DNA of 47,655 nucleotides from positions 1-47,655 of IMG/VR virus record IMGVR_UViG_3300017738_000006. The stretch is one strand, 5' to 3'. Of the stretch, positions 9,010 to 47,613 are shown piece by piece. A program made the position numbers and the translations under genes. The notes below the pieces were generated by a model. It was not told the DNA's origin and ran no database searches. It saw nothing but the letters and a program-made list of their open reading frames with translations. Position 1 is the stretch's first letter. Each line of letters opens with the position of its first letter. This DNA comes from a virus.

Positions 9010-9294
9010 ATGAATCAACATTATAACAAATATAAAGAAACTATCAAAAAAGTTGCAAGGCGACACAGATTGTTAAAAGATAAGTGGATTGCTGATTATT
9101 TGATGTCTAACTCCTGTTCACATTGTGGTGAGTCTGAACTCATATGTTTACAGTTCTATCCAGATGACAGAAAGATACGAGCCCTGTCTAAAAGAACTGA
9201 GGATAAAACTGAAGTACTGGAGTATATATCAAAAAACGAAATTGTATGTAGAAATTGTTTTCAAAAATTAGATTCGGATATTATAGGAGAATAA
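9010..9294 (+). CDS. Zinc-ribbon protein related to HNH nucleases, catalytic histidines lost
   Basis: The 94-residue product has two zinc-binding knuckles, CSHC (36-39) and CRNC (80-83), spaced as in small phage HNH proteins of the pattern CxxCG...LEFHH...VLCxNCH. Here the LEFHH catalytic motif reads LQFYP (47-51) and the final CxNCH reads CRNCF, so the zinc scaffold is kept but the nuclease histidines are gone. The N-terminal third is very basic (KKVARRHRLLKDK), which fits nucleic-acid binding. It is the first gene of a two-gene plus-strand islet between genes 18 and 17. A regulatory DNA/RNA-binding role is more likely than cleavage; this is inferred. Confidence 0.75.
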   Translation: MNQHYNKYKETIKKVARRHRLLKDKWIADYLMSNSCSHCGESELICLQFYPDDRKIRALSKRTEDKTEVLEYISKNEIVCRNCFQKLDSDIIGE

Positions 9295-9297
9295 AAT

Positions 9298-9930
9298 ATG
9301 AGTAATTGGATGACTGACCAAGATAACTTAAATAAGTTAAATGTTTCTGGAAATGAAGTTCCAGAAACCCTATTCCAATGGTTGAAAGATGTTGCACTTG
9401 AAGCAAAGAAAAATGGTAAAGACTATCGTAGTAAACTCGCTGGTCAACTATCAGAAGAATATGAAATAAAAGATAGAAGTGGAGAATTTGAAAGTTGGTT
9501 AGCAACTTGTTCCACAACTGGAAACGTATATCAATCATGGAGAGAAATGGTTGTGTTAAATGAAAATGCACCTATAATGTTAAGTAACTTGTGGGTAAAC
9601 TATCAAAAGAAACATGAGTTCAATCCACTACACACCCACTCTGGGTTTGTTTCATTTGTAATATTCATGAGTATACCCTATGACCTACAGGATGAGGAAG
9701 ATATGTTCAAGGAGGCGAACAATAAACAAGCATCAAAGTTTGCATTTTTCTCACCAGACCATAGATATCCAGGCGGTATAGATTTGGTTAGTCTAAACGT
9801 AGATAAAAGTTATGAGGGAAAAATGATAATGTTCAAATCATCACAGGTGCATGGTGTATATCCATTCTACACAAGTAATGACTATAGAATTACTATATCC
9901 GGCAATTTAACTTTTAGAGTTACCAGTTAG
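9298..9930 (+). CDS. Putative 2OG-Fe(II) oxygenase (TIGR02466-like)
   Basis: The 210-residue product looks like a phage 2-oxoglutarate/iron dioxygenase of the type with an N..HxH iron motif. Candidate ligands are His112 and His114 in FNPLHTHSGFVSFVIF, His185 in SSQVHGVYPF and Arg197 (NDYRITISGN) for 2-oxoglutarate. HxH in place of HxD is seen in this subgroup, but I cannot confirm activity. The start follows an AGGAG site four bases after the preceding gene, so the pair is an operon. Its 3' end overlaps the 3' end of oppositely oriented gene 17 by 11 bases. Substrate unknown. Confidence 0.72.
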   Translation: MSNWMTDQDNLNKLNVSGNEVPETLFQWLKDVALEAKKNGKDYRSKLAGQLSEEYEIKDRSGEFESWLATCSTTGNVYQSWREMVVLNENAPIMLSNLWVNYQKKHEFNPLHTHSGFVSFVIFMSIPYDLQDEEDMFKEANNKQASKFAFFSPDHRYPGGIDLVSLNVDKSYEGKMIMFKSSQVHGVYPFYTSNDYRITISGNLTFRVTS

Positions 9931-11569
9931 AGTTATAGTTCCTTACTATAGGATTCCACTTAGTACCATACTCGTCAACCATTTCACCTATGTTTTCATC
10001 TTCCAGTCCGTTTACAACGAAACCAAAGGGGGCCATGTCCTGTTCTAGTTGATCTTGTTGGTCTTTGAACATTTGTTCTCTCACATCATTGTTGGTAAGT
10101 TCTTTAAAATATGTTTGGTCTGTCGCCCAACCAAATATAAACATACACGCAACTAAGTCATCATTACAACCATCATCTGCTTCAAAGGATGACCCTTTAA
10201 CTATAAATGTAGACAATTCATTGATACAGTCAAAATCCTCAACTATTATCTTATCACTCTCTAATAGTTGTTTTAGATTAGAACACCCAATCTTCTTAAC
10301 TGCTTTAGTAGTTCTTACACCCAACTGGGCTCTACCACCAGAGAAACCACCACCCATGATTTGACCAGCACGACCCCTCATAGATGCCATAACTAGATTA
10401 TCATACTCCATGTCAAACTGCATTGCATTTGCAACCTGTTCTCCAATATCATTTACCTCTATAAGAACAAACGCAAGATTGTATGCTCTCGCAACATGAT
10501 ATATTTTTTGTGGAAACAATAATGGTTTGATTTCATTATCTCTAAACTTTGCAACTACACGATAAGGAACTTGTGTTACATCAAAAACAATATACGCAGA
10601 GTAATCATTTTTAGTTCCCCTTGATACGTCTGCAACCATAAAGTATGTGTGGTCTTTTTTTGGTTGTTCGTATATTTCCAGACCAGCGTTAGACTGTAGT
10701 GGTGTCTTATACGCAAGTGTTCTAAGTTTGCGTGGTGTGATGAGTGTATCAATAGAACCAAGAAACTCACATTCAAATTCTGTTTGGAACTGTTGTTCAC
10801 TTGTATTTGCGATTGTTTCTTGTTTCCACTTGTCATCACGACCAGGCACTTCACTCCAATGCACTTCTATTGGTATATAAGTGTTCCTCTTCTCCTCTGC
10901 ATCTGTCCAGAGTTTATAGAACATATTCATACCATGTGGTGTGGAAACTATCATAACCTTTGTAGACTTACCAGACGATATTGTAGGATACACAGAACTA
11001 AAGAATTGTTCTGCAACATTTGATGGTACATACGCAAACTCGTCTAAGAATATGATGTTGTAACTTCCACCCCTTACAGCACTCGCAGAAGTGGAGGAAG
11101 CGAGTATTTTAGACCCATTCTCCAATTCTAGTGAACCTTTGTTCCATGACATAACTCCCTGTTGTAACCACTTCGGTAGATGTTCGTATGCAAGTTGCAG
11201 TCGTCCTAACAAATCTCTTGCAGTTGCAGCTTTGTTTGCAAGTATCGCTATATTAACACTTGGGTTGAAAAGTGAGTAGTGTAGTAGGTAGGATATCATA
11301 GTCGTGGATTTACCAGACTGTCTGGGTAACTTACAGATTGTAAAACGATTTTTATGAAATGTACCCACCATCTCCTTTTGGAAGGGGTACATCTTAAATG
11401 GTATTAAACCCTCGTCTAGAGATACAATTCTGACATAGGTTTGTATGAAGTAGAGTGGGTCTTCCATACATCGTGCGTATTCTTGGAGTTGTTTCTTTGT
11501 CCACTCCTGTTGAACATTCGCCTTTTTTAGGTTTGGATTACCTAGATATGTGAACTCATTGGTCTGCAT
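9920..11569 (-). CDS. gp17: Terminase large subunit gp17
   Basis: This is the packaging motor ATPase and headful nuclease that docks on the gp20 portal. The 549-residue protein has a Walker A segment LPRQSGKST (81-89), a Walker B segment NIIFLDEFAY with Asp176-Glu177, and RNase-H-fold nuclease acids at Asp314 (MVADVSRG), Glu371 (LIEVND) and the Asp470/471 pair (DDGCNDDLV). T4 gp17 is 610 residues. The start overlaps the upstream dioxygenase gene by 14 bases. Confidence 0.97.
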   Translation of the reverse strand: MQTNEFTYLGNPNLKKANVQQEWTKKQLQEYARCMEDPLYFIQTYVRIVSLDEGLIPFKMYPFQKEMVGTFHKNRFTICKLPRQSGKSTTMISYLLHYSLFNPSVNIAILANKAATARDLLGRLQLAYEHLPKWLQQGVMSWNKGSLELENGSKILASSTSASAVRGGSYNIIFLDEFAYVPSNVAEQFFSSVYPTISSGKSTKVMIVSTPHGMNMFYKLWTDAEEKRNTYIPIEVHWSEVPGRDDKWKQETIANTSEQQFQTEFECEFLGSIDTLITPRKLRTLAYKTPLQSNAGLEIYEQPKKDHTYFMVADVSRGTKNDYSAYIVFDVTQVPYRVVAKFRDNEIKPLLFPQKIYHVARAYNLAFVLIEVNDIGEQVANAMQFDMEYDNLVMASMRGRAGQIMGGGFSGGRAQLGVRTTKAVKKIGCSNLKQLLESDKIIVEDFDCINELSTFIVKGSSFEADDGCNDDLVACMFIFGWATDQTYFKELTNNDVREQMFKDQQDQLEQDMAPFGFVVNGLEDENIGEMVDEYGTKWNPIVRNYNSNW

Positions 11570-12134
11570 GAAAACTGAACCACCCTGTTATTATAGACTT
11601 TTCGCCTTCGTAATTTGTAACACCCCTGTGAGTATGTGTCCAAGCTGCAGGCCATATTATTGTTAGTCCTTTTTCACATGGTGTTGTAGTTTTCTGATAC
11701 CAAAATTCTGTACCAGCGTTATCTAAAGTATTTAGATAAGTCATGAAAGTTAAGTGTCTGTATAAAGATTTACCGATACCACCATTCTCCATGTGCCACT
11801 TGTAAAACCCATCACCAGGCATATAGTGTTGTATCTTTATATTATTGTCATTTAGACTGTAAACACCAACCTCATCACAAAACGGATATCTCTCCTTATA
11901 TAAATTTAAACAATCACTCAAATGGTCTAGGTAATTTGATATTTTTCCAAATTCATTTGGTGGTACATACAAATCTTTACATTTTTTCCACTCTGGGTTT
12001 AATCCACGACCACACTCACCATCTACCAATTTATCTTGTTCTGAATTAAGTACGTCAACTACACTATCACACACTTCTTCGGGCATATACCAACCACCGA
12101 TAAAAGTATTATTGTCTATTTCATATTCTCTCAT
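11556..12134 (-). CDS. 2OG-Fe(II) oxygenase (prolyl-hydroxylase-like)
   Basis: The 192-residue product belongs to a phage dioxygenase type with the iron motif HxE. His114 and Glu116 lie in YKWHMENGG, the distal His is in PAAWTHTHRG (His167 or His169), and Lys179 in GEKSIITGW probably replaces the usual 2OG-binding Arg. The double-stranded beta-helix core spans about 98-188. It is placed between terminase genes 16 and 17 with ATGA overlap to gene 16, so it is translated with the packaging genes. The substrate is unknown; protein hydroxylation is the family default. Confidence 0.82.
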   Translation of the reverse strand: MREYEIDNNTFIGGWYMPEEVCDSVVDVLNSEQDKLVDGECGRGLNPEWKKCKDLYVPPNEFGKISNYLDHLSDCLNLYKERYPFCDEVGVYSLNDNNIKIQHYMPGDGFYKWHMENGGIGKSLYRHLTFMTYLNTLDNAGTEFWYQKTTTPCEKGLTIIWPAAWTHTHRGVTNYEGEKSIITGWFSFHADQ

Positions 12135-17924: not shown

Positions 17925-18389
17925 TTATCCATCTGGGTTTACTGTTGTCCACCCTACTGTATTATCTGCTTGATAGGCAGACTCGTCCCAATAATAAGCG
18001 TTATCTTGATCGGTAGGCAGAGTTATTGGAGCCTCCCATAAACCAGTTGATGTATTTAAAGTCCAACTTGCATATGGTTGTGCTTCATAGAACATATCAC
18101 TTGTTCTATTATACTTATAACCCACGCCTGGACAGTTCTTACGTTGTCTACCATCTTGTGCGGCTATTACTGTTGATTGATCATCAGATGGAGTTTTGAA
18201 TGAGTTTTCACCTGTAGCATCTGCTACATAATGAACACCACCAAACATATTAAAACTGTACTGAACCCAATCAGATGGAGAACCAGACAGTTTCCCACCA
18301 GATACATCTGCATCATCTGTTACATGAACAATTTCTGTTACTGTTCCTACGTTGTTTGTATAGTTCTCAACTTTTGCCCAATGTCCCAT
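17925..18389 (-). CDS. Marine-phage tail-associated protein (FGGVHY/PYPSW-type family)
   Basis: The 154-residue product resembles a small protein family common in marine phages: an N-terminal HWAKVENNTV-type strand, then a segment containing WVQYSFNMFGGVHY, then RKNCPGVGYKYNRTSDMFYE and QPYASWTLNTSTGLWEAPIT. It lies directly after the polyglycine fibre gene. I chose the ATG at 18389 because TAGGA is six bases upstream; the ATG at 18395 touches that site. It is likely a fibre tip or tail accessory protein, inferred from neighbours and family distribution. Confidence 0.75.
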   Translation of the reverse strand: MGHWAKVENYTNNVGTVTEIVHVTDDADVSGGKLSGSPSDWVQYSFNMFGGVHYVADATGENSFKTPSDDQSTVIAAQDGRQRKNCPGVGYKYNRTSDMFYEAQPYASWTLNTSTGLWEAPITLPTDQDNAYYWDESAYQADNTVGWTTVNPDG

Positions 18390-18397
18390 ATTCATTC

Positions 18398-19345
18398 CTA
18401 CGATGTATACTGATATCTAACAATGACTATTCCAGAACCACCATTAAATCCGCCTGGACTTCCATCACTTCTTCTTCCACCACCACCAGAACCAGTATTA
18501 CCAGATCCAGCAGTTCCGTTACCAGCGTTGGTTGGATTTTCTCCACCACCACCAATACTACAAGTTCTTGATGTACTTTGTCCACCAGTTCCACCAGCGG
18601 CATAGTTTGTGTTGGTTGCTCTTATGTTAGAGGCTTTGCAGTTTCCACCGCCTCCTCCACCGCCACCACCGCCGTTTCCACCAGCGCCTCCGCCTCCACC
18701 AGCGTTTGAACCACCATCATATCCGTAAGTTCCTCCATGACCCCCACCAGCGCCTTGACCTCCACCGCCTCCAGAACCACCTGGCGAAGAACCACCGCCT
18801 TGGTCTTTATTACCACCATAACCACCACCAGTTGCAGTAATACCATTGAAGTTTGAAGCACCACCTTGAGAGTTACTTCCACCCCCACCAGCGATAGTTA
18901 CATAGTGTCCACCAGTTGTTGAAAAAGATGTATCTCCAGCGGCACCATGACCACCACCTTGAGTACCATAACTTGTACGCATACCACCAGCACCAGCACC
19001 GCCTCCGTATCCGTTGTCTCCTCGACCTCCACCGCCGCCTCCAGCGACAATGAGATACTCAACTGCTTGGTTTCCAGCACTATTTCCTACGTTGGTAACT
19101 GTGAGTGTTCCACTACCATTGAAAACGTGTATTCTATTATTTCCACTAGTGAAGTTTGAATTACCACCAGTTGCTTGAACATACTGTGCGTTTGATGTTC
19201 CGTAGAACTCACTTACTGATATTGTACTAGAACTTGGGATACCAGAAGCCGCATCATAAAATTCACTTAAACTATGGGGTGTAGTTCCACCAAACTCTCC
19301 AGCGATTTCACCGATTGATATTGCTCCAGAATTTTGTAGTGTCAT
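18398..19345 (-). CDS. Glycine-rich tail fibre tip / adhesin candidate
   Basis: The 315-residue product has an N-terminal virion-attachment-like segment (LQNSGAISIGEIAGEFGG), a beta strand region ending in AVEYLIVAGGGGGGRGDNG, and then about 200 residues dominated by Gly runs with interspersed Asn/Ser/Asp, closing with GGSGIVIVRYQYTS. The composition recalls polyglycine-II sandwich adhesins such as the gp38 tip of T4-like phage S16, where gly-rich segments form a lattice that carries variable receptor-binding loops. It is encoded directly after the S74 fibre in the fibre block. The host-recognition role is an inference from composition and position. Confidence 0.78.
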   Translation of the reverse strand: MTLQNSGAISIGEIAGEFGGTTPHSLSEFYDAASGIPSSSTISVSEFYGTSNAQYVQATGGNSNFTSGNNRIHVFNGSGTLTVTNVGNSAGNQAVEYLIVAGGGGGGRGDNGYGGGAGAGGMRTSYGTQGGGHGAAGDTSFSTTGGHYVTIAGGGGSNSQGGASNFNGITATGGGYGGNKDQGGGSSPGGSGGGGGQGAGGGHGGTYGYDGGSNAGGGGGAGGNGGGGGGGGGGNCKASNIRATNTNYAAGGTGGQSTSRTCSIGGGGENPTNAGNGTAGSGNTGSGGGGRRSDGSPGGFNGGSGIVIVRYQYTS

Positions 19346-41467: not shown

Positions 41468-41605
41468 TTATAGAGTGAAAGTAATTAAAAGTAAAATCCA
41501 GATTAAGAGTAATTCTTGCCAACTGATTGCATTACTTGTGTACGCAACCCAAGATAGATTACCACACATATAACATAAAGTGAGATAGATGAAATATTCT
41601 ATCAT
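41468..41605 (-). CDS. 45-residue membrane protein at the end of the halogenase operon
   Basis: A short frame starts at the ATG at 41605, which overlaps the stop of the preceding dioxygenase gene as ATGA, and ends with TAA at 41468. The product is MIEYFIYLTLCYMCGNLSWV followed by AYTSNAISWQ and a hydrophobic C-terminal helix (ELLLIWILLLITFTL). Two hydrophobic stretches predict a hairpin or a single-span membrane peptide. The ATGA overlap and hydrophobic coding content support a real gene. Function unknown. Confidence 0.6.
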   Translation of the reverse strand: MIEYFIYLTLCYMCGNLSWVAYTSNAISWQELLLIWILLLITFTL

Positions 41606-42231
41606 GGAGGCATCACAGTATTCATGTCGAGTTGACCAAATTGACTGATACAGAATCTACCACTCTTGGTATTCCTATATTGTTCTTCCATCTTAACAGG
41701 TACAACTCCGTGTTTAATAAATGATGGGAATATAAATGTTCTGTTGTTGTATGATTTTATTTCTGTGTCATAGTCTGGTAAAATTAAATCACCACCTGTA
41801 AATCTTTTTGGTTCTTTGTATAACCATGTCAGAGATGTAACAGTAGAAGAGTCGATGTGAGTTTTGTACTCATCATTCTCTTCGTAGTATCCTACTTGTG
41901 TGTTGTCTTTGTTGATGTGTAAGTTTTTAAAAAACCATGAGTCGTGTTGACGAAATATCTCATACCCATTTCCAAATAGTTTTCTGTTGACCATCAATAT
42001 GTTTGACATATCTCTGAACGCATACAGTCCATCTAGGTATGAATGATAATTTAATTTAAGTAGTGTTCCCTCTGGTGTTTGAGCTCCACCACTCTGTACA
42101 GTCGCTCTTCGTAACTTAGTAGGATAACAAAGAAAGTCTAACTCTTCCCATATCAAAGAGAGTTCACCCTCATCATAATAATCATCTATGATGATGTAAG
42201 GAAAAGGTTCGTTGTAGTTTTTTATTTCCAT
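41602..42231 (-). CDS. 2OG-Fe(II) oxygenase, prolyl-hydroxylase-like
   Basis: The 209-residue product has the full 2OG dioxygenase ligand set: His125-x-Asp127 in YKTHIDSSTVTSLTWLYKEP, distal His174 in FPSFIKHGVVPV and Arg192 in GRFCISQF. FTGGDLILPDYD resembles the GGxL segment of prolyl 4-hydroxylases. The gene overlaps the DUF6445-like gene upstream by about ten bases and is followed by the 45-residue membrane protein, so it belongs to the halogenase operon. The substrate is unknown. Confidence 0.85.
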   Translation of the reverse strand: MEIKNYNEPFPYIIIDDYYDEGELSLIWEELDFLCYPTKLRRATVQSGGAQTPEGTLLKLNYHSYLDGLYAFRDMSNILMVNRKLFGNGYEIFRQHDSWFFKNLHINKDNTQVGYYEENDEYKTHIDSSTVTSLTWLYKEPKRFTGGDLILPDYDTEIKSYNNRTFIFPSFIKHGVVPVKMEEQYRNTKSGRFCISQFGQLDMNTVMPP

Positions 42232-42992
42232 GTCTTCAACTTAATCGCAGACTCTATGGTTGTATCAAAGTCCTCGTTAATAACTCGTTCTCTGGGTAGT
42301 AATGTGTCACTACTGATACCACCTATGAAGAACACAAGTGTGAGTCTATCACTATCACCAACATCAAAACTATTTGCTCTGTGAAACTCCTGTGCATCAT
42401 AAATTATTAATCTGTTGTAGATATTCTGAAACCTAACAGTTTCATAAAACTTATCATTATTTCTTTTGAGAGCTGTAGTATAATCCTCATCTGAGATTTC
42501 ACCACCTGTATAATAAAAATGTTTCTCTGGATTAGTCTTAGAAACTAATTTGTTTTTGTATTCTGGTTTTACTCTCATCAATGACGTTCCACCATTTGGG
42601 TCTGCATCTGGTGTGAGGTATATCAGTCCTGCTAAATCTATATCACCTTTGTCTGCACTTGTGTCTTGATGAACCCAACCCTCATTGACAGACATCTTAG
42701 GTATTTGTTGAAAACACGCATTACTATGTGTCCAACCAAAGTTAACATAACTCATATCAAAGTATGCAGACAATATCTTACATATGATATGTTGATTGAC
42801 TACATTGTTTACTTTGAATAGTTCGTCACTTCTTACTCCAGGCCATGAACCATCACCACTAGGAATTTTATCTAACGACAGTCCCCACTCTCTAATTTCA
42901 TCTGGGTTGAGAAAAAAATCATCTACACAAACTGAGAAGAACTTCTTCTTCATTTCTCTAGAGAACTTTGCCTTGTGTTGATAACCACTCAT
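42222..42992 (-). CDS. DUF6445-like 2OG-Fe(II) oxygenase paired with the halogenase
   Basis: The 256-residue product shows the dioxygenase pattern WVHQDTS (His108-x-Asp110), LAGLIYLTPDADPNGGTSLM, distal His204 in YDAQEFHRANSF and Arg216 in DRLTLVFFIGG. Early residues (FSVCVDDFFLNPDEIREWGL) also match the DUF6445 type. I prefer the ATG at 42992, six bases from AAGGAG; the ATG at 42995 is only three bases away. The start overlaps the halogenase stop, indicating coupled translation. In bacteria, DUF6445 proteins are, as I recall, often neighbours of tryptophan-halogenase-like genes, so the phage pair may be a functional unit. Substrate unknown. Confidence 0.8.
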   Translation of the reverse strand: MSGYQHKAKFSREMKKKFFSVCVDDFFLNPDEIREWGLSLDKIPSGDGSWPGVRSDELFKVNNVVNQHIICKILSAYFDMSYVNFGWTHSNACFQQIPKMSVNEGWVHQDTSADKGDIDLAGLIYLTPDADPNGGTSLMRVKPEYKNKLVSKTNPEKHFYYTGGEISDEDYTTALKRNNDKFYETVRFQNIYNRLIIYDAQEFHRANSFDVGDSDRLTLVFFIGGISSDTLLPRERVINEDFDTTIESAIKLKTWK

Positions 42993-44548
42993 CATATACT
43001 CCTTATGTGCAACTTCTTCAAGTGTCGATAAAGACTAGGACACTTCTTCGCTTTTGTATCCCACTCTTCCTTTCTTCTTTCTAATTGCATTATTCTTTTG
43101 TTCCACTTGTCACTAAAAATATTTAGGTCACTTTCACGAGTCCCATACTTTAGTGTGTGTTCATCTGTGGGGTGAAAGTTCATACCAGCCGCAATACAAT
43201 TCATTCCAGAAAAATTAGGATAGTGAAACTTATCGAAACTCCACTCGTTAATATTCTGAAACGTACTATCTATTCTCTTGATACTACTTTCTACTCCGTA
43301 ATCTCTTCTTTGTATATCTCTCCAGTATTCCGTGTCATCTCTGATTGATAATGCGTAGTGCGATGCAACGAACTCTGCAAACTCTTTGAAAAACTTTTTA
43401 CAGTTTGCGTTGAACTGGTCTTTGACAAAAGTTGAAACTACAGGTCTATCTCTAAGTACCTTTACAAGTCTAACAAGAAACTCATGCACACTCAATAGTC
43501 CGTTACTCTCAAGTGGTTCTATGAAACCAGCAGACAATCCTATCGCACAAACATTCTTTACAAATATTCTTTTGTGTAGTCCAACTCTCATTGTAAGTTT
43601 TCTAAACTCTAGGTCATCTCTACCAAGATATTTTTTAAACTCATCTAGTGCATCATCATCACTTACATACTTGTCAGAGTAAACATATCCTGTACCTATT
43701 CTACTCCACAGGGGAATGTTCCACACCCACCCATTGTCGAGTGCAGTACAGTTCGTGTATGGTTTTATTTCTTTCTCTTTGTTTGTGTAAGGTAGATGTG
43801 TAGCCCACGCTTTGTTATTTGGTAACATATCTGCGTAACTATCAAATGGTTCTTTCAAAGTTTCACCAAGAAGTAAAGACTTCCAACCTGTGCAATCAAT
43901 GAACAAGTCAGCGGTGTATCTCTCCAGTTTGTTTGTAACTATCGTGTCGATACCATTATCGCTTTCTTTAACGATTTTGATATCACCTTTCTCCACGACC
44001 CCACCGATATCTACAAATCTTTTCTTCAACCAGTTTGCAAACATTACTGCATCAAAATGATATGCAACCTCTTTCTTATAAGAGTAAAGGTCAGGACACA
44101 GTTGAAGTGTCTTGTTCATCTCATCAGTAAGTATGGTGTTGTTATTAACAAGTGACATCATAGGATAATGAGTCAATGCGTAATCTGTCACAGGTGTGTC
44201 TGGATATAATATCTTTTTGAAATACCAGTCGTTTAGATTTGCAATACTATCGGAAATGTCTGGTCGGCCGAAAGGATAATGAAACCCACCATCACCTTTC
44301 TGGTAGAAGTTTTCAAAACGAATACTCATCTTGAGTGAACCATTACATTCTCTCATAAAATCTTCTTCGTGTAAATCAACCATAGACATCCATTGATTGA
44401 TACCACCTAACGTGCTTTCTCCGACACCGACAGTCGGTACGTTCTCACTCTCAAGTATAGTAATGTTCTTTTCTGGGAAAACTTTTTTTAAAGTATATGC
44501 TGACATGACACCAGCACTACCACCACCCACAACAATTATATTCTTCAT
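42992..44548 (-). CDS. Flavin-dependent tryptophan-halogenase-like enzyme
   Basis: The 518-residue product is close in size to PrnA (538). It has the FAD-binding GGGSAG (8-13), the GVGES motif (41-45), the halogenase signature WVWNIP (274-279; consensus WxWxIP), Lys73 in NGSLKMSIRF at the position of the PrnA catalytic lysine, and Glu347 in FIEPLESNGL at the position of the partner glutamate. Halogenation of an indole or related aromatic group is therefore plausible and catalysis looks intact; it would need reduced FAD from a host reductase, as none is encoded here. I chose the ATG at 44548 (TAATG overlap with the upstream stop, giving MKNIIVVGGGSAG) over 44602. It is the third gene of the late operon. 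Confidence 0.93.
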   Translation of the reverse strand: MKNIIVVGGGSAGVMSAYTLKKVFPEKNITILESENVPTVGVGESTLGGINQWMSMVDLHEEDFMRECNGSLKMSIRFENFYQKGDGGFHYPFGRPDISDSIANLNDWYFKKILYPDTPVTDYALTHYPMMSLVNNNTILTDEMNKTLQLCPDLYSYKKEVAYHFDAVMFANWLKKRFVDIGGVVEKGDIKIVKESDNGIDTIVTNKLERYTADLFIDCTGWKSLLLGETLKEPFDSYADMLPNNKAWATHLPYTNKEKEIKPYTNCTALDNGWVWNIPLWSRIGTGYVYSDKYVSDDDALDEFKKYLGRDDLEFRKLTMRVGLHKRIFVKNVCAIGLSAGFIEPLESNGLLSVHEFLVRLVKVLRDRPVVSTFVKDQFNANCKKFFKEFAEFVASHYALSIRDDTEYWRDIQRRDYGVESSIKRIDSTFQNINEWSFDKFHYPNFSGMNCIAAGMNFHPTDEHTLKYGTRESDLNIFSDKWNKRIMQLERRKEEWDTKAKKCPSLYRHLKKLHIRSI

Positions 44549-44745
44549 TACTTTATATATCGACCACAACAGATAGGCATGGATGCGATATTCTTTTTCC
44601 AATCTTTGTTGATCTCATCATTCATTTTTCTTTTTGTCATAAAGACAGACTTCTCACTACGAACAAACATGAGTTGAGGTTTTTTTAGACAGGACATTAT
44701 AGGCCCATCTTTTATGTATTCTACTGGGGGAGTTTTCTTCGCCAT
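44548..44745 (-). CDS. Small basic cysteine-containing protein ahead of the halogenase
   Basis: The 65-residue product is basic (MAKKTPPVEYIKDGPIMSCL, then EKSVFMTKRKMNDEINKDW) and ends MPICCGRYIK with a Cys pair. It has no signal peptide or membrane span. Its TAA overlaps the halogenase ATG, so the two are translationally coupled. I do not recognise it; a partner or carrier for the halogenase is a possibility suggested only by the coupling. Confidence 0.65.
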   Translation of the reverse strand: MAKKTPPVEYIKDGPIMSCLKKPQLMFVRSEKSVFMTKRKMNDEINKDWKKNIASMPICCGRYIK

Positions 44746-45002
44746 CAGGCAGAGATGTCGAGAGTCCTATGGATACGCATTTGATCTAACAAATTCCACA
44801 TCTGGTTCTTAGAAAAGAACTGCATCATCAATATATAAGCTAACCATCTCTGTTGTTCACGATATTGTTCTTGATGATATTCCATCAATCGTGTTTCAGA
44901 CATATGCTGAACCTGTCTTACCTGTTGTGCGTTATAGGTTTGGACAGACGCAGTGTTATGATAGTTGTTTATATATTGATTTGTAACTGTTCCTATTTGC
45001 AT
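44745..45002 (-). CDS. Gln/Tyr-rich small protein, first gene of the halogenase operon
   Basis: The 85-residue product is rich in Gln, Tyr and Met (NQYINNYHNTASVQTYNAQQ, then EYHQEQYREQQRWLAYILMM) and contains one Trp in the helical part and one near the C-terminus. It has an AAGGATAGAGAG ribosome region and a TATAAATA late promoter 20 bases upstream. Start and stop abut the next gene. Unknown family; Trp50ish and 70ish residues make it a conceivable halogenation substrate, which is pure speculation. Confidence 0.65.
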   Translation of the reverse strand: MQIGTVTNQYINNYHNTASVQTYNAQQVRQVQHMSETRLMEYHQEQYREQQRWLAYILMMQFFSKNQMWNLLDQMRIHRTLDISA

Positions 45003-45021: not shown

Positions 45022-45029
45022 TATTTATA
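45022..45029 (-). promoter_or_regulatory. Late promoter TATAAATA for the halogenase-dioxygenase operon
   Basis: TATAAATA lies 20 bases before the ATG at 45002, in the 51-base gap after the dioxygenase gene. It implies that the cargo operon 41468-45002 is expressed with virion genes. Confidence 0.8.
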
Positions 45030-45053: not shown

Positions 45054-45680
45054 TTAGATAACATTATAATTAATTATAAGTCGTACATCTTTCTGTGGTT
45101 GTTCTGCTGTGTGGTAGAACGCACCATCAAAGATTACCACTCTTCCTTGTTTTGGTGGCACTCTTTCCAACTCCGTTGTTTCTTCTTCTTCGTCTGGTGT
45201 ATAGTAACCAGGCATAAATTTATTTTGATATCTGTTCTTGTAGAGGATAGTGTCACCATCTGAGTCCTTTACATAGTAAAGTATCACAAGATGATTTTCT
45301 GTTCTGTCCACATGATTGATATCAAGTTCGTCTGACAATCCCTTGAGGGGTAATTGTAGAAAAGACCGACCCTGTATAATATATCTGTAGTTATAATCTA
45401 CACTCTTACATGATGCATCTATCATGGGTACTAACATATCATGTAAGTAACTTCGTTCTAGTTCGTTGTATTGTGTTCCTGTTGCAGTATGCAAATCAAA
45501 CTCTGACTCATAGTATCTGTGAGAGAAACATGGTCTAGGCTCCATGTCTGCGTTGATATTGATGTTATGATTGTAGAACCAATTTGTTTCATGTGAGAGA
45601 AGTGTATTCTTAATTCTTTCTTGATACTCTTTATCAATGACATCATCAAATACCCAAAACTTGCCACGAAAGTCGTCCAT
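45054..45680 (-). CDS. 2OG-Fe(II) oxygenase
   Basis: The 208-residue product has His123-x-Asp125 in LDINHVDRTENHLVILYYV, distal His190 in FDGAFYHTAEQPQ and Arg200 in KDVRLIINYNV, giving the complete iron and 2OG set. PPKQGRVVIFDG is the usual strand before the distal His. I chose the ATG at 45680 (MDDFRGKFWVFDDV), which overlaps the upstream TAA as TAATG exactly as at the halogenase start; the ATG at 45692 is the alternative. It is preceded by another dioxygenase gene and is separated from the halogenase operon by a late promoter. Substrate unknown. Confidence 0.85.
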   Translation of the reverse strand: MDDFRGKFWVFDDVIDKEYQERIKNTLLSHETNWFYNHNININADMEPRPCFSHRYYESEFDLHTATGTQYNELERSYLHDMLVPMIDASCKSVDYNYRYIIQGRSFLQLPLKGLSDELDINHVDRTENHLVILYYVKDSDGDTILYKNRYQNKFMPGYYTPDEEEETTELERVPPKQGRVVIFDGAFYHTAEQPQKDVRLIINYNVI

Positions 45681-46225
45681 TACCAAACCCAACTCACAAA
45701 AGAATATCTTTCACCATTGTTGATAGTATTCACTTTGTGAGGAAACATAAAGTTAGATGGAAACATAACTATGTCACCACCTGTTAGATTAATCTTCTTT
45801 TCTCCTATAACAAACTCTCCACCTGTAAAGTCATCATTGAGTAGACCCACTATACTCAGTATAGGAACACCTTTTGGTTCTGGGTCTGCGTTTGTTGTGA
45901 ACAATGTGTGTATGTGGTCACAGTGCATCTCCATTTTTGTATTCTTCGTGTAGCGATTGTAACGAGGTTTTGAGTATCCGTTCCACCCTGTAAACCAATC
46001 CATGTCCAACTCTCCAATGTAGTCACTAATGGTGAAGTGAAGTATACCCATCAGTTCATCATGTCTTTTCATTGCATGCCATGTCATGTCAAAATCTGTA
46101 TTGGTAGAACCTTTACTTTCTCCACCAGAAGCCCACCCATGTTTTATATACTTAGAACTCTGTAGTTCTTTCAACATATCTTTAGTTAAGTCATTATTCA
46201 GTTGGTCACGAAATACTCTAATCAT
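45680..46225 (-). CDS. 2OG-Fe(II) oxygenase, prolyl 4-hydroxylase-like
   Basis: The 181-residue product is a compact prolyl-4-hydroxylase-type enzyme: His101-x-Asp103 in MEMHCDHIHTLF, VPILSIVGLLNDDFTGGEFV, then LTGGDIVMFPSNFMFPHKV with distal His163 and Arg173 in NGERYSFVSWVW. It overlaps the upstream gene by four bases (ATGA) and is coupled to a second dioxygenase downstream. This pair is under the sigma-70-type promoter at 46577-46605, so it may be made earlier than the halogenase operon. Substrate unknown. Confidence 0.87.
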   Translation of the reverse strand: MIRVFRDQLNNDLTKDMLKELQSSKYIKHGWASGGESKGSTNTDFDMTWHAMKRHDELMGILHFTISDYIGELDMDWFTGWNGYSKPRYNRYTKNTKMEMHCDHIHTLFTTNADPEPKGVPILSIVGLLNDDFTGGEFVIGEKKINLTGGDIVMFPSNFMFPHKVNTINNGERYSFVSWVW

Positions 46226-47292: not shown

Positions 47293-47613
47293 ATGACACC
47301 AGAAGAAAAAAACACAATGATGGAAAAGGTCGTTAAGAACTTGGAACAGGTTTACGACCCAGAGATACCACAGATATCCGTAATACATCTTGGATTAATA
47401 TACGATATACAAATAGAAGAATACATTGTAACTATCACTCATACATTAACAAGTGCGTTCTGTCCTATGGCTGATGAGATTAGTAGAGGAATAAAGAATG
47501 CTGGTCTACAGGATACAGGTGCAAAGGATTGTATAGTTAACTGCACATTCTCCCCACCATTCAACATGACAATGATACCAGAAGAAACTCGATTAGAAAT
47601 GGGTTGGTTCTGA
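47293..47613 (+). CDS. MIP18/DUF59 (SufT/PaaD-like) iron-sulphur assembly protein
   Basis: The 106-residue product matches the MIP18 family used in iron-sulphur cluster maturation: VYDPEIPQISVIHLGLIYDI (20-39), a TLTSAFCPMADEI core with the conserved Cys57, and a C-terminal PPFNMTMIPEETRLEMGWF resembling the PPWxxxxMSEEAR ending of bacterial homologues. It would help load clusters onto a target protein, of host or phage. It stands alone on the plus strand with a late promoter touching its ATG and a G10 tract upstream. Assignment to the family is firm; the client is unknown. Confidence 0.9.
   Translation: MTPEEKNTMMEKVVKNLEQVYDPEIPQISVIHLGLIYDIQIEEYIVTITHTLTSAFCPMADEISRGIKNAGLQDTGAKDCIVNCTFSPPFNMTMIPEETRLEMGWF

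Follow-up and report, generated by a model that had tools for sequence, protein, structure and literature searches.

A marine T4-like phage genome may encode as many as 24 2OG oxygenases (S-SCSM1) and frequently a halogenase too; their functions "have not been specifically investigated" (PMC9602691). One such halogenase, VirX1, is a trimer with an iodide preference and a broad substrate range (reviewed in PMC8407142), and, although no natural substrate is known for it, serves in biocatalysis. A cluster combining a halogenase with oxygenases has been described from S-SSM6a and read as serving a secondary metabolite (Iyer et al., 2021; PMC7824862). Such clusters are common as well as published, and the claims of a first-pass annotation of the DNA considered here, that halogenases of other phages are isolated genes and that their clustering with oxygenases is new, do not stand. 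What is new here is that these islands adjoin genes for Gly-rich tail adhesins, both in T4-like and in unrelated phages. In myocyanophage Pam3, receptor binding is a function of Gly-rich distal domains (PMC9608196), and the link joins the halogenase and oxygenase puzzles into one testable question.

The window, i.e. the entire stretch of 47,655 nucleotides analyzed (IMG/VR record IMGVR_UViG_3300017738_000006), found no match in a near-identity search of phage records. On its minus strand, adjoining the baseplate hub lysozyme gene, we recovered all six ORFs previously called as one unit (Table 1): neighbouring genes overlap by 1-10 nt, with TGATG junctions in addition to the ATGA and TAATG couplings already recognized. 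The single late promoter placed ahead of them is likewise real: TATAAATA occurs nine times on the minus strand versus once on the plus strand, and eight of the nine minus-strand copies, including that at 45022-45029, lie at most 60 bp upstream of a start codon. Judging from this promoter, the predicted expression is late, together with the virion genes. The extent of the unit needs revision: the six genes are present, but the set does not start at 45002, with DOXC and DOXD being coupled and directly upstream, the former next to the promoter itself. Since these two and another two elsewhere add to DUF6445 and DOXB, the window encodes six 2OG oxygenases in total, along with one halogenase.

Table 1. 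Features of the window, with positions counted from its first nucleotide
Feature	Position	Strand	Basis and remarks
Further 2OG-Fe(II) oxygenase, late region	9298..9930	+	PF13759
Further 2OG-Fe(II) oxygenase, late region	11556..12134	-	PF13640
c5/phrog_7759 companion of Gly-rich protein	17925..18395	-	same pair in other contigs
Gly-rich tail-adhesin-like protein, 34% Gly, no Trp	18398..19345	-	phrog_2295 E 5e-32; proposed substrate class
45-aa hydrophobic (membrane) protein (TM45)	41468..41605	-	ORF; diverged homologue in same place in L200/L201
DOXB, 2OG-Fe(II) oxygenase (HID...H...R)	41602..42231	-	PF13640 27.6 bits; phrog_61
DUF6445 Fe(II)/2OG oxygenase	42222..42995	-	PF20043; phrog_1644, labelled 'minor coat protein'
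VirX1-like flavin-dependent halogenase, 518 aa, ATG 44548	42992..44548	-	PF04820, VirX1 match, catalytic motifs
sp65, small protein, function not assigned	44548..44745	-	ORF; kept in L200/L201
sp85, small Gln-rich protein, function not assigned	44745..45002	-	ORF; kept in L200/L201
T4-type late promoter TATAAATA	45022..45029	-	sequence; 27 nt upstream of sp85 start codon
DOXC, 2OG-Fe(II) oxygenase (HVD...H...R)	45054..45680	-	PF13640/PF13759 below cut-off; phrog_274 E 3e-28
DOXD, 2OG-Fe(II) oxygenase, PKHD/PiuC-type similarity	45680..46225	-	PF13640 46 bits; PiuC 9ghl E 3e-4

The halogenase is a VirX1-like flavin-dependent enzyme: it matches PF04820 with 328.6 bits (cut-off 21; E 9e-98) and VirX1 (6qgm) with E 1e-95 in phmmer, and Foldseek searches with its AF2 model (pLDDT 89.8) retrieve VirX1 with a TM-score of 0.90 and PrnA with 0.81-0.84. 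The FAD motif (GGGSAG, residues 8-13, of the GxGxxG type), the WxWxIP motif (WVWNIP, residues 274-279) and the catalytic Lys73 and Glu347 noted earlier are all in place. The two catalytic residues align with K79 and E346 of PrnA, a comparison that had been named beforehand as a check; among phage halogenases, the Lys is conserved in 161/161 and the Glu in 158/162. By these residues the enzyme would appear to be active. The fold, the FAD motif, WxWxIP and the catalytic K and E are common to PrnA, RebH and PyrH, whereas the window enzyme differs from them in having a Tyr in place of H101 and in lacking the residues for the Trp carboxylate, amine and lid. These we take to be Y443, Y444, E450 and W455 of PrnA, none of which is conserved in our alignment in either the window enzyme, which shows E435, W436, H442 and a gap at these places, or VirX1. 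The missing free-Trp pocket fits a larger substrate. VirX1 (cyanophage Syn10, PDB 6QGM), also a phage gene product of the same family with the same fold and catalytic Lys/Glu, is ~36% identical to it over the structure. Bacterial relatives show at most 37% identity, except for two MAG contigs: L335 (43%), which is phage-like with a matching Gly-rich/oxygenase/halogenase block, and L334 (48%), in which neither phage-like character nor such a block was seen.

The 2OG oxygenases claimed at the outset are also real. The profile searches that the first-pass annotation had suggested, along with that for PF04820, score 37.7 bits for the DUF6445 domain (cut-off 24) and 27.6 bits for PF13640 in DOXB (cut-off 27). 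The HxD...H...R signature that had been attributed to both is present, with H109, D111, H205 and R217 of DUF6445 (the iron triad and the 2OG-binding Arg) being invariant; a pattern search finds it in DOXB and DOXC, and it can be read in DOXD as HCD...H...R. A scan of viral contigs with DUF6445 recovered near relatives only, its PDB profile search gave one irrelevant weak match, and DOXB had no match in the PDB by sequence. The AF2 model of DUF6445 (pLDDT 81.5) shows the double-stranded β-helix fold of the Fe(II)/2OG superfamily: every Foldseek match listed (TM 0.33-0.52, E 6e-6 and weaker) is either an Fe/2OG oxygenase or a putative oxygenase.

The operon is modular, with single enzymes being gained or lost. 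Two sister contigs, L200 and L201, carry sp85-sp65-DUF6445(86%)-TM45 with clean empty sites where the window has the halogenase and DOXB. Thus, the latter two are interchangeable parts, and sp85, being kept by phages devoid of the halogenase, is not specific to it. This gives no support to the fixed, dedicated six-gene pathway first envisaged.

Across phages, halogenase and oxygenase islands are linked to genes for Gly-rich adhesins in several tests, which are not phylogenetically independent: six of nine halogenase-bearing isolates have PF21722 (Gly_rich_2) no more than 1.5 kb from the halogenase (0.52 expected, p=5e-6), and among contigs anchored on the neck protein gp13 and dereplicated at 90%, a Gly-rich gene is found in 7/7 halogenase loci versus 9/33 without a halogenase (p=6e-4), and in 9/11 loci with at least two oxygenases versus 7/29 of the others (p=0.0025). 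The association in the gp13 set is stable at Gly thresholds of 0.22-0.35 and lost at 0.40; with dereplication at 80%, p is 0.004 for the halogenase, 0.018 for at least two oxygenases and 0.17 for at least one. An independent, Pfam-only test finds PF13640 in 10/13 PF21722-positive records versus 6/24 negative ones (p=0.005), or, counting records of 20 kb or more, 10/10 versus 5/14 (p=0.002). A Gly-rich gene is at most two genes away in 27 of 54 halogenase islands (permutation mean 17.8, p=0.001), and the arrangement recurs in L009-L025, which have no T4-type genes in view. Counterexamples exist: S-PM2 has five PF13640 matches and none to PF21722, and some halogenases have recombination genes, not tail genes, as neighbours (S-B64, L045, L056-L060, L077-L078). 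Where the fibre region is just as long and rich in genes but the phage is Gly-negative (L295, L310, L314, L317), there is one oxygenase or none, so the link is to Gly-rich adhesins specifically, not to variable regions in general.

The window's own Gly-rich protein, which scores 19.8 bits with PF21722 (below the cut-off of 24.3), is 23.6 kb from the halogenase, both being inside the late region. Its homologues adjoin halogenases in L012, L017 and L070, the pair formed with c5 stands ahead of the halogenase island in L014-L025, L029 and L062, and DOXB relatives adjoin halogenases in L014-L025, L053 and L062. Tryptophan as the obvious substrate finds no support on either side, with the Trp-binding residues of PrnA gone from the enzyme and Trp itself from the window adhesin; the Gly-rich proteins of L009-L013 are equally devoid of it, even though the halogenases are ~66-67% identical. 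Histidine was also considered as a target: it makes up 2.2% of Gly-rich segments in halogenase loci versus 0.6% otherwise (p=8e-8). This enrichment is clade-bound by locus, with L014-L025 showing 0.4-0.9% despite their halogenase, and 1.5% being reached in L214, which shares its sample of origin with the halogenase-less L201; the enrichment is kept only as a lead.

These observations lead to the proposal, which we rate slightly below an even chance, that these enzymes form a late, exchangeable set acting on the Gly-rich tail adhesin. With FADH2 supplied by a host reductase, the halogenase would use reduced flavin in an open, VirX1-type site to form a hypohalous or halo-lysine species at K73 from the presumed halide, and would then halogenate an electron-rich ring, with E347 activating the substrate; the Fe(II)/2OG oxygenases would hydroxylate or otherwise oxidize further residues. 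The enzymes are predicted to be made together with tail parts, and their likeliest shared substrate would be the Gly-rich tail-tip adhesin, the host-binding loops of which might in this way acquire a chemistry more diverse than the 20 amino acids allow, and the phage could swap single modifying enzymes in and out as it does adhesin loops. In the virion proteome of S-SZBM1, fibre neighbours were detected and the halogenase and adjacent oxygenases were not (PMC9146016), as would be expected if these enzymes were not built into the virion; its Gly-rich proteins likewise went undetected (PMC9146016), perhaps on account of few tryptic sites. Virion modification, one option in the initial interpretation, gains support as such; the halogenase, oxygenases and predicted lateness are retained as well, and the fixed pathway, tryptophan as the obvious substrate and the novelty of clustering find no support.

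A halogenated, hydroxylated small molecule made during infection, such as an antibiotic or a host-protecting compound, is the reading already in print: Iyer et al. (2021; PMC7824862) proposed it for jumbo cyanophages, as others earlier did for prnA (PMC2984593, PMC9964418). Carbamoyltransferases and heptose genes in some islands favor it, as do natural-product oxygenases among the structure matches of the DUF6445 model. We consider it unlikely: the S-SSM7 cluster itself sits between tail-fibre genes and gp13, islands of close relatives differ by one or two enzymes at a time, unlike a pathway, the halogenase has no free-Trp residues, expression is predicted to be late, and the window, a genome fragment, has no carbamoyltransferase or scaffold-forming enzyme among its genes. 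Improbable to the same degree is that the enzymes act on host targets, e.g. surface glycans, ribosomal or other proteins, or the 2OG and nitrogen balance, with proximity to tail genes reflecting insertion tolerance. The tail-fibre region is indeed a known hypervariable hot spot for any cargo (PMC2984593, PMC7029224), and co-location alone is no proof of shared function; roles in setting 2OG levels and in DNA repair have been proposed (PMC3037559), and some oxygenases, e.g. in S-PM2, are encoded at a distance from tail genes. Against this, the Gly-negative phages with long fibre regions are poor in oxygenases, and a 2OG sink needs no large set of diverged enzymes. Modification of another virion protein, e.g. 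a baseplate or capsid protein or the c5 companion, which has 6 Trp in 156 aa in the window and travels with the Gly-rich gene, would suit the late timing equally, yet we regard it as a poor prospect, with c5 being found without halogenase or oxygenase in L294 and the adjacency statistics covering Gly-rich genes. That sp65 and sp85 are RiPP precursors modified by the halogenase and oxygenases, as their position directly upstream, their translational coupling and the halogenases known to act on RiPP precursors (PMC10858898) might suggest, is rejected as most improbable, for both persist in sister phages devoid of the halogenase and second oxygenase, and no other phage halogenase has a relative of either next to it.

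Extended to marine phages at large, modification of the adhesin would mean that VirX1-type halogenases, together with many 2OG oxygenases encoded by T4-like marine phages, natively serve mix-and-match halogenation and multiple hydroxylations of a Gly-rich, receptor-binding tail tip, a generalization that we put forward with more reserve than the proposal itself. If true, there would be halogenated virion proteins, a chemical layer of host-range diversification, and phage host range would have an enzyme-written component invisible to sequence alone. Host-recognition islands of marine phages (Mizuno et al., 2014, PMC3909814; the pelagimyophage HRC, PMC7029224) already list Fe(II) oxygenases, with no link drawn in the available parts of these reports to Gly-rich adhesins, halogenases or protein modification. 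The ten-gene halogenase/2OGFeDO/carbamoyltransferase cluster of S-SSM6a and S-SSM7 (PMC7824862), placed between tail-fibre genes and gp13, resembles the window in that a T4-like marine phage carries a halogenase alongside several 2OG oxygenases, whereas neither a carbamoyltransferase nor any sugar gene is visible in the window unit, as far as this fragment extends. The cyanophages Sf-CH11, Syn9, S-CREM1 and Sf-FP1 have, as does the window, a halogenase and several oxygenases in one block; the block of the window is 23.6 kb away from its Gly-rich adhesin gene, whereas theirs directly adjoins such genes.

The window, a virus record of 47,655 bp, covers part of the genome of a T4-like marine phage. 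The closest matches to its major head protein come from Pelagibacter phage Mosig (75%), Methylophilales phage Melnitz (74%) and HTVC008M (69%). Its minus strand carries the late genes, for head, sheath, terminase, neck proteins, tail fibres, baseplate and hub lysozyme, and nine copies of TATAAATA as against one on the plus strand, eight of the nine having a start codon no more than 60 bp downstream. One copy (45022-45029) precedes the six genes under consideration, which overlap by 1-10 nt, bearing out the first-pass annotation of a coupled string behind a late promoter. On the plus strand, a 94-aa protein gene and a PF13759 oxygenase gene (9010-9930) are flanked by the sheath and terminase genes of the minus strand; some relatives (L210, L214) retain the 94-aa gene with no adjoining oxygenase. 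At the window end (47293-47613), a phage-encoded FeS_assembly_P protein (PF01883, SufT/MIP18-like) also lies on the plus strand, facing the opposite way from the late genes.

The proposal that the six genes form a fixed unit is not supported, as the sister contigs L200 and L201 have the operon with neither halogenase nor second oxygenase. All three share the string g81-g76-g110-an oxygenase-sp85-sp65-DUF6445-TM45-g160-g137-hub lysozyme; L200 has only 18-26 nt at the halogenase position and a few nt at that of the second oxygenase, and the DNA flanking the empty sites is 84-96% identical. Thus, the empty sites and shared string indicate that the halogenase joined, as cargo, an operon that already existed. 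The proteins nearest to it (~66-67%) are in contigs L009-L013, which are not T4-like and differ in virion gene set, implying transfer between phage groups.

The halogenase (518 aa, PF04820) has VirX1 of cyanophage Syn10 as its closest solved relative (E 1e-95), on which its AF2 model (pLDDT 89.8) superposes at TM 0.90. As previously claimed, the catalytic Lys and Glu are conserved: K73 and E347 align with K79 and E346 of PrnA (sequence identical to PDB 2apg). PrnA Y443, Y444, E450 and W455, which hold the amino-acid part of tryptophan, are replaced in both the window enzyme and VirX1; hence, 'tryptophan halogenase' is a family label rather than a substrate. For VirX1, no native substrate is known (PMC8407142). 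Both dioxygenases retain the expected HxD...H...R, with H109/D111/H205/R217 invariant in DUF6445 and HID...H...R in the second (PF13640). The DUF6445 model (pLDDT 81.5) matches small-molecule and prolyl-hydroxylase types of Fe/2OG oxygenases alike, making the fold uninformative on substrate class. Further oxygenases are encoded in the window (see table). Comparable 2OG oxygenases in phrog_274, phrog_3531 and phrog_1644 are publicly labelled 'DNA endonuclease V', 'ferrochelatase' and 'minor coat protein', which look like misannotations.

Further 2OG oxygenase genes in the window
Feature	Position	Strand	Location
Further oxygenase	45680-46225		directly upstream of the six genes
Further oxygenase	45054-45680		directly upstream of the six genes
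Further oxygenase	9298-9930	+	elsewhere in the window
Further oxygenase	11556-12134	-	elsewhere in the window

Across phages, at least one 2OG oxygenase occurs inside 40 of 54 distinct halogenase islands and in the locus for 49 of 54. Gly-rich proteins (PF21722/phrog_2295/phrog_863), whose annotation is tail fibre or tail-fibre assembly, recur as neighbours; the window product at 18398-19345 is assigned to this group by phrog_2295, its PF21722 score (19.8 bits) being under the cut-off. Some loci (L050, L065, L075, L076) contain 4 or 5 halogenases per ~12 kb. These, with L070 and L079, are ~12 kb arrays combining 4 or 5 halogenases with 4-8 2OG oxygenases, adjoining Gly-rich tail genes; the latter form tandem triplets, apart from L075, where the contig stops after the first. 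Two recurrent ~245-aa families of the islands, c3 and c12 (L010:1528-2274, L070:9271-10005), have no Pfam match, and c3 reaches four copies in a row in L084. Contig L335 (Dehalococcoidia MAG, PACM01000007.1), binned as bacterial but bearing Gly-rich/c5/oxygenase/halogenase/oxygenase genes, looks like a mis-binned phage.

In complete isolates, PF21722 is found in 9/9 halogenase-bearing records, and in 6/9 no more than 1.5 kb separates it from the halogenase (0.5 expected by random placement, p=5e-6). Among contigs selected from three sources by the neck protein gp13 and dereplicated at 90%, the Gly-rich gene is present in 7/7 with halogenase versus 9/33 without (p=6e-4; 5/5 versus 3/15 at 80%, p=0.004), and in 9/11 with two or more oxygenases versus 7/29 (p=0.0025). 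Using Pfam models only, PF13640 occurs in 10/13 PF21722-positive records versus 6/24 negative ones (p=0.005), or 10/10 versus 5/14 for records of at least 20 kb (p=0.002). Halogenase islands with a Gly-rich gene within two genes number 27, versus a mean of 17.8 when gene order is permuted within loci (p=0.001). These tests draw on clade-structured samples, Gly-rich status was called by composition, and the association disappears at a Gly threshold of 0.40. The linkage has exceptions: the halogenase adjoins recombination genes in S-B64, L045, L056-L060 and L077-L078, S-PM2 has oxygenases with no PF21722 match, and in the window itself 23.6 kb separate halogenase and Gly-rich gene. Contigs that are Gly-negative despite a long fibre region (L295, L310, L314, L317) have 0 or 1 oxygenase, which argues against a simple insertion hot spot. 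Separately, His makes up 2.2% of Gly-rich adhesin segments in halogenase loci versus 0.6% (L118-L198 proteins), mostly in cyanomyovirus-like contigs and not universally.

The late enzymes might modify amino-acid side chains in the Gly-rich adhesin. Its distal loops would bind the receptor, a role with structural precedent in Pam3 gp24 (PMC9608196); we infer enzyme activity, the adhesin as target and a benefit to the phage. Mass spectrometry of S-SZBM1 picked up gp51-54, the neighbours at the fibre genes, but neither halogenase gp46 nor the oxygenases, suggesting that the modifying enzymes are not virion parts; the Gly-rich proteins likewise went undetected (PMC9146016). A search of literature available without subscription returned no paper in which Gly-rich adhesins are tied to either halogenases or 2OG oxygenases. 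The prior art comprises VirX1, the S-SSM6a cluster, interpreted as a secondary-metabolite system (PMC7824862), and the oxygenases already listed among host-recognition island genes (PMC3909814).
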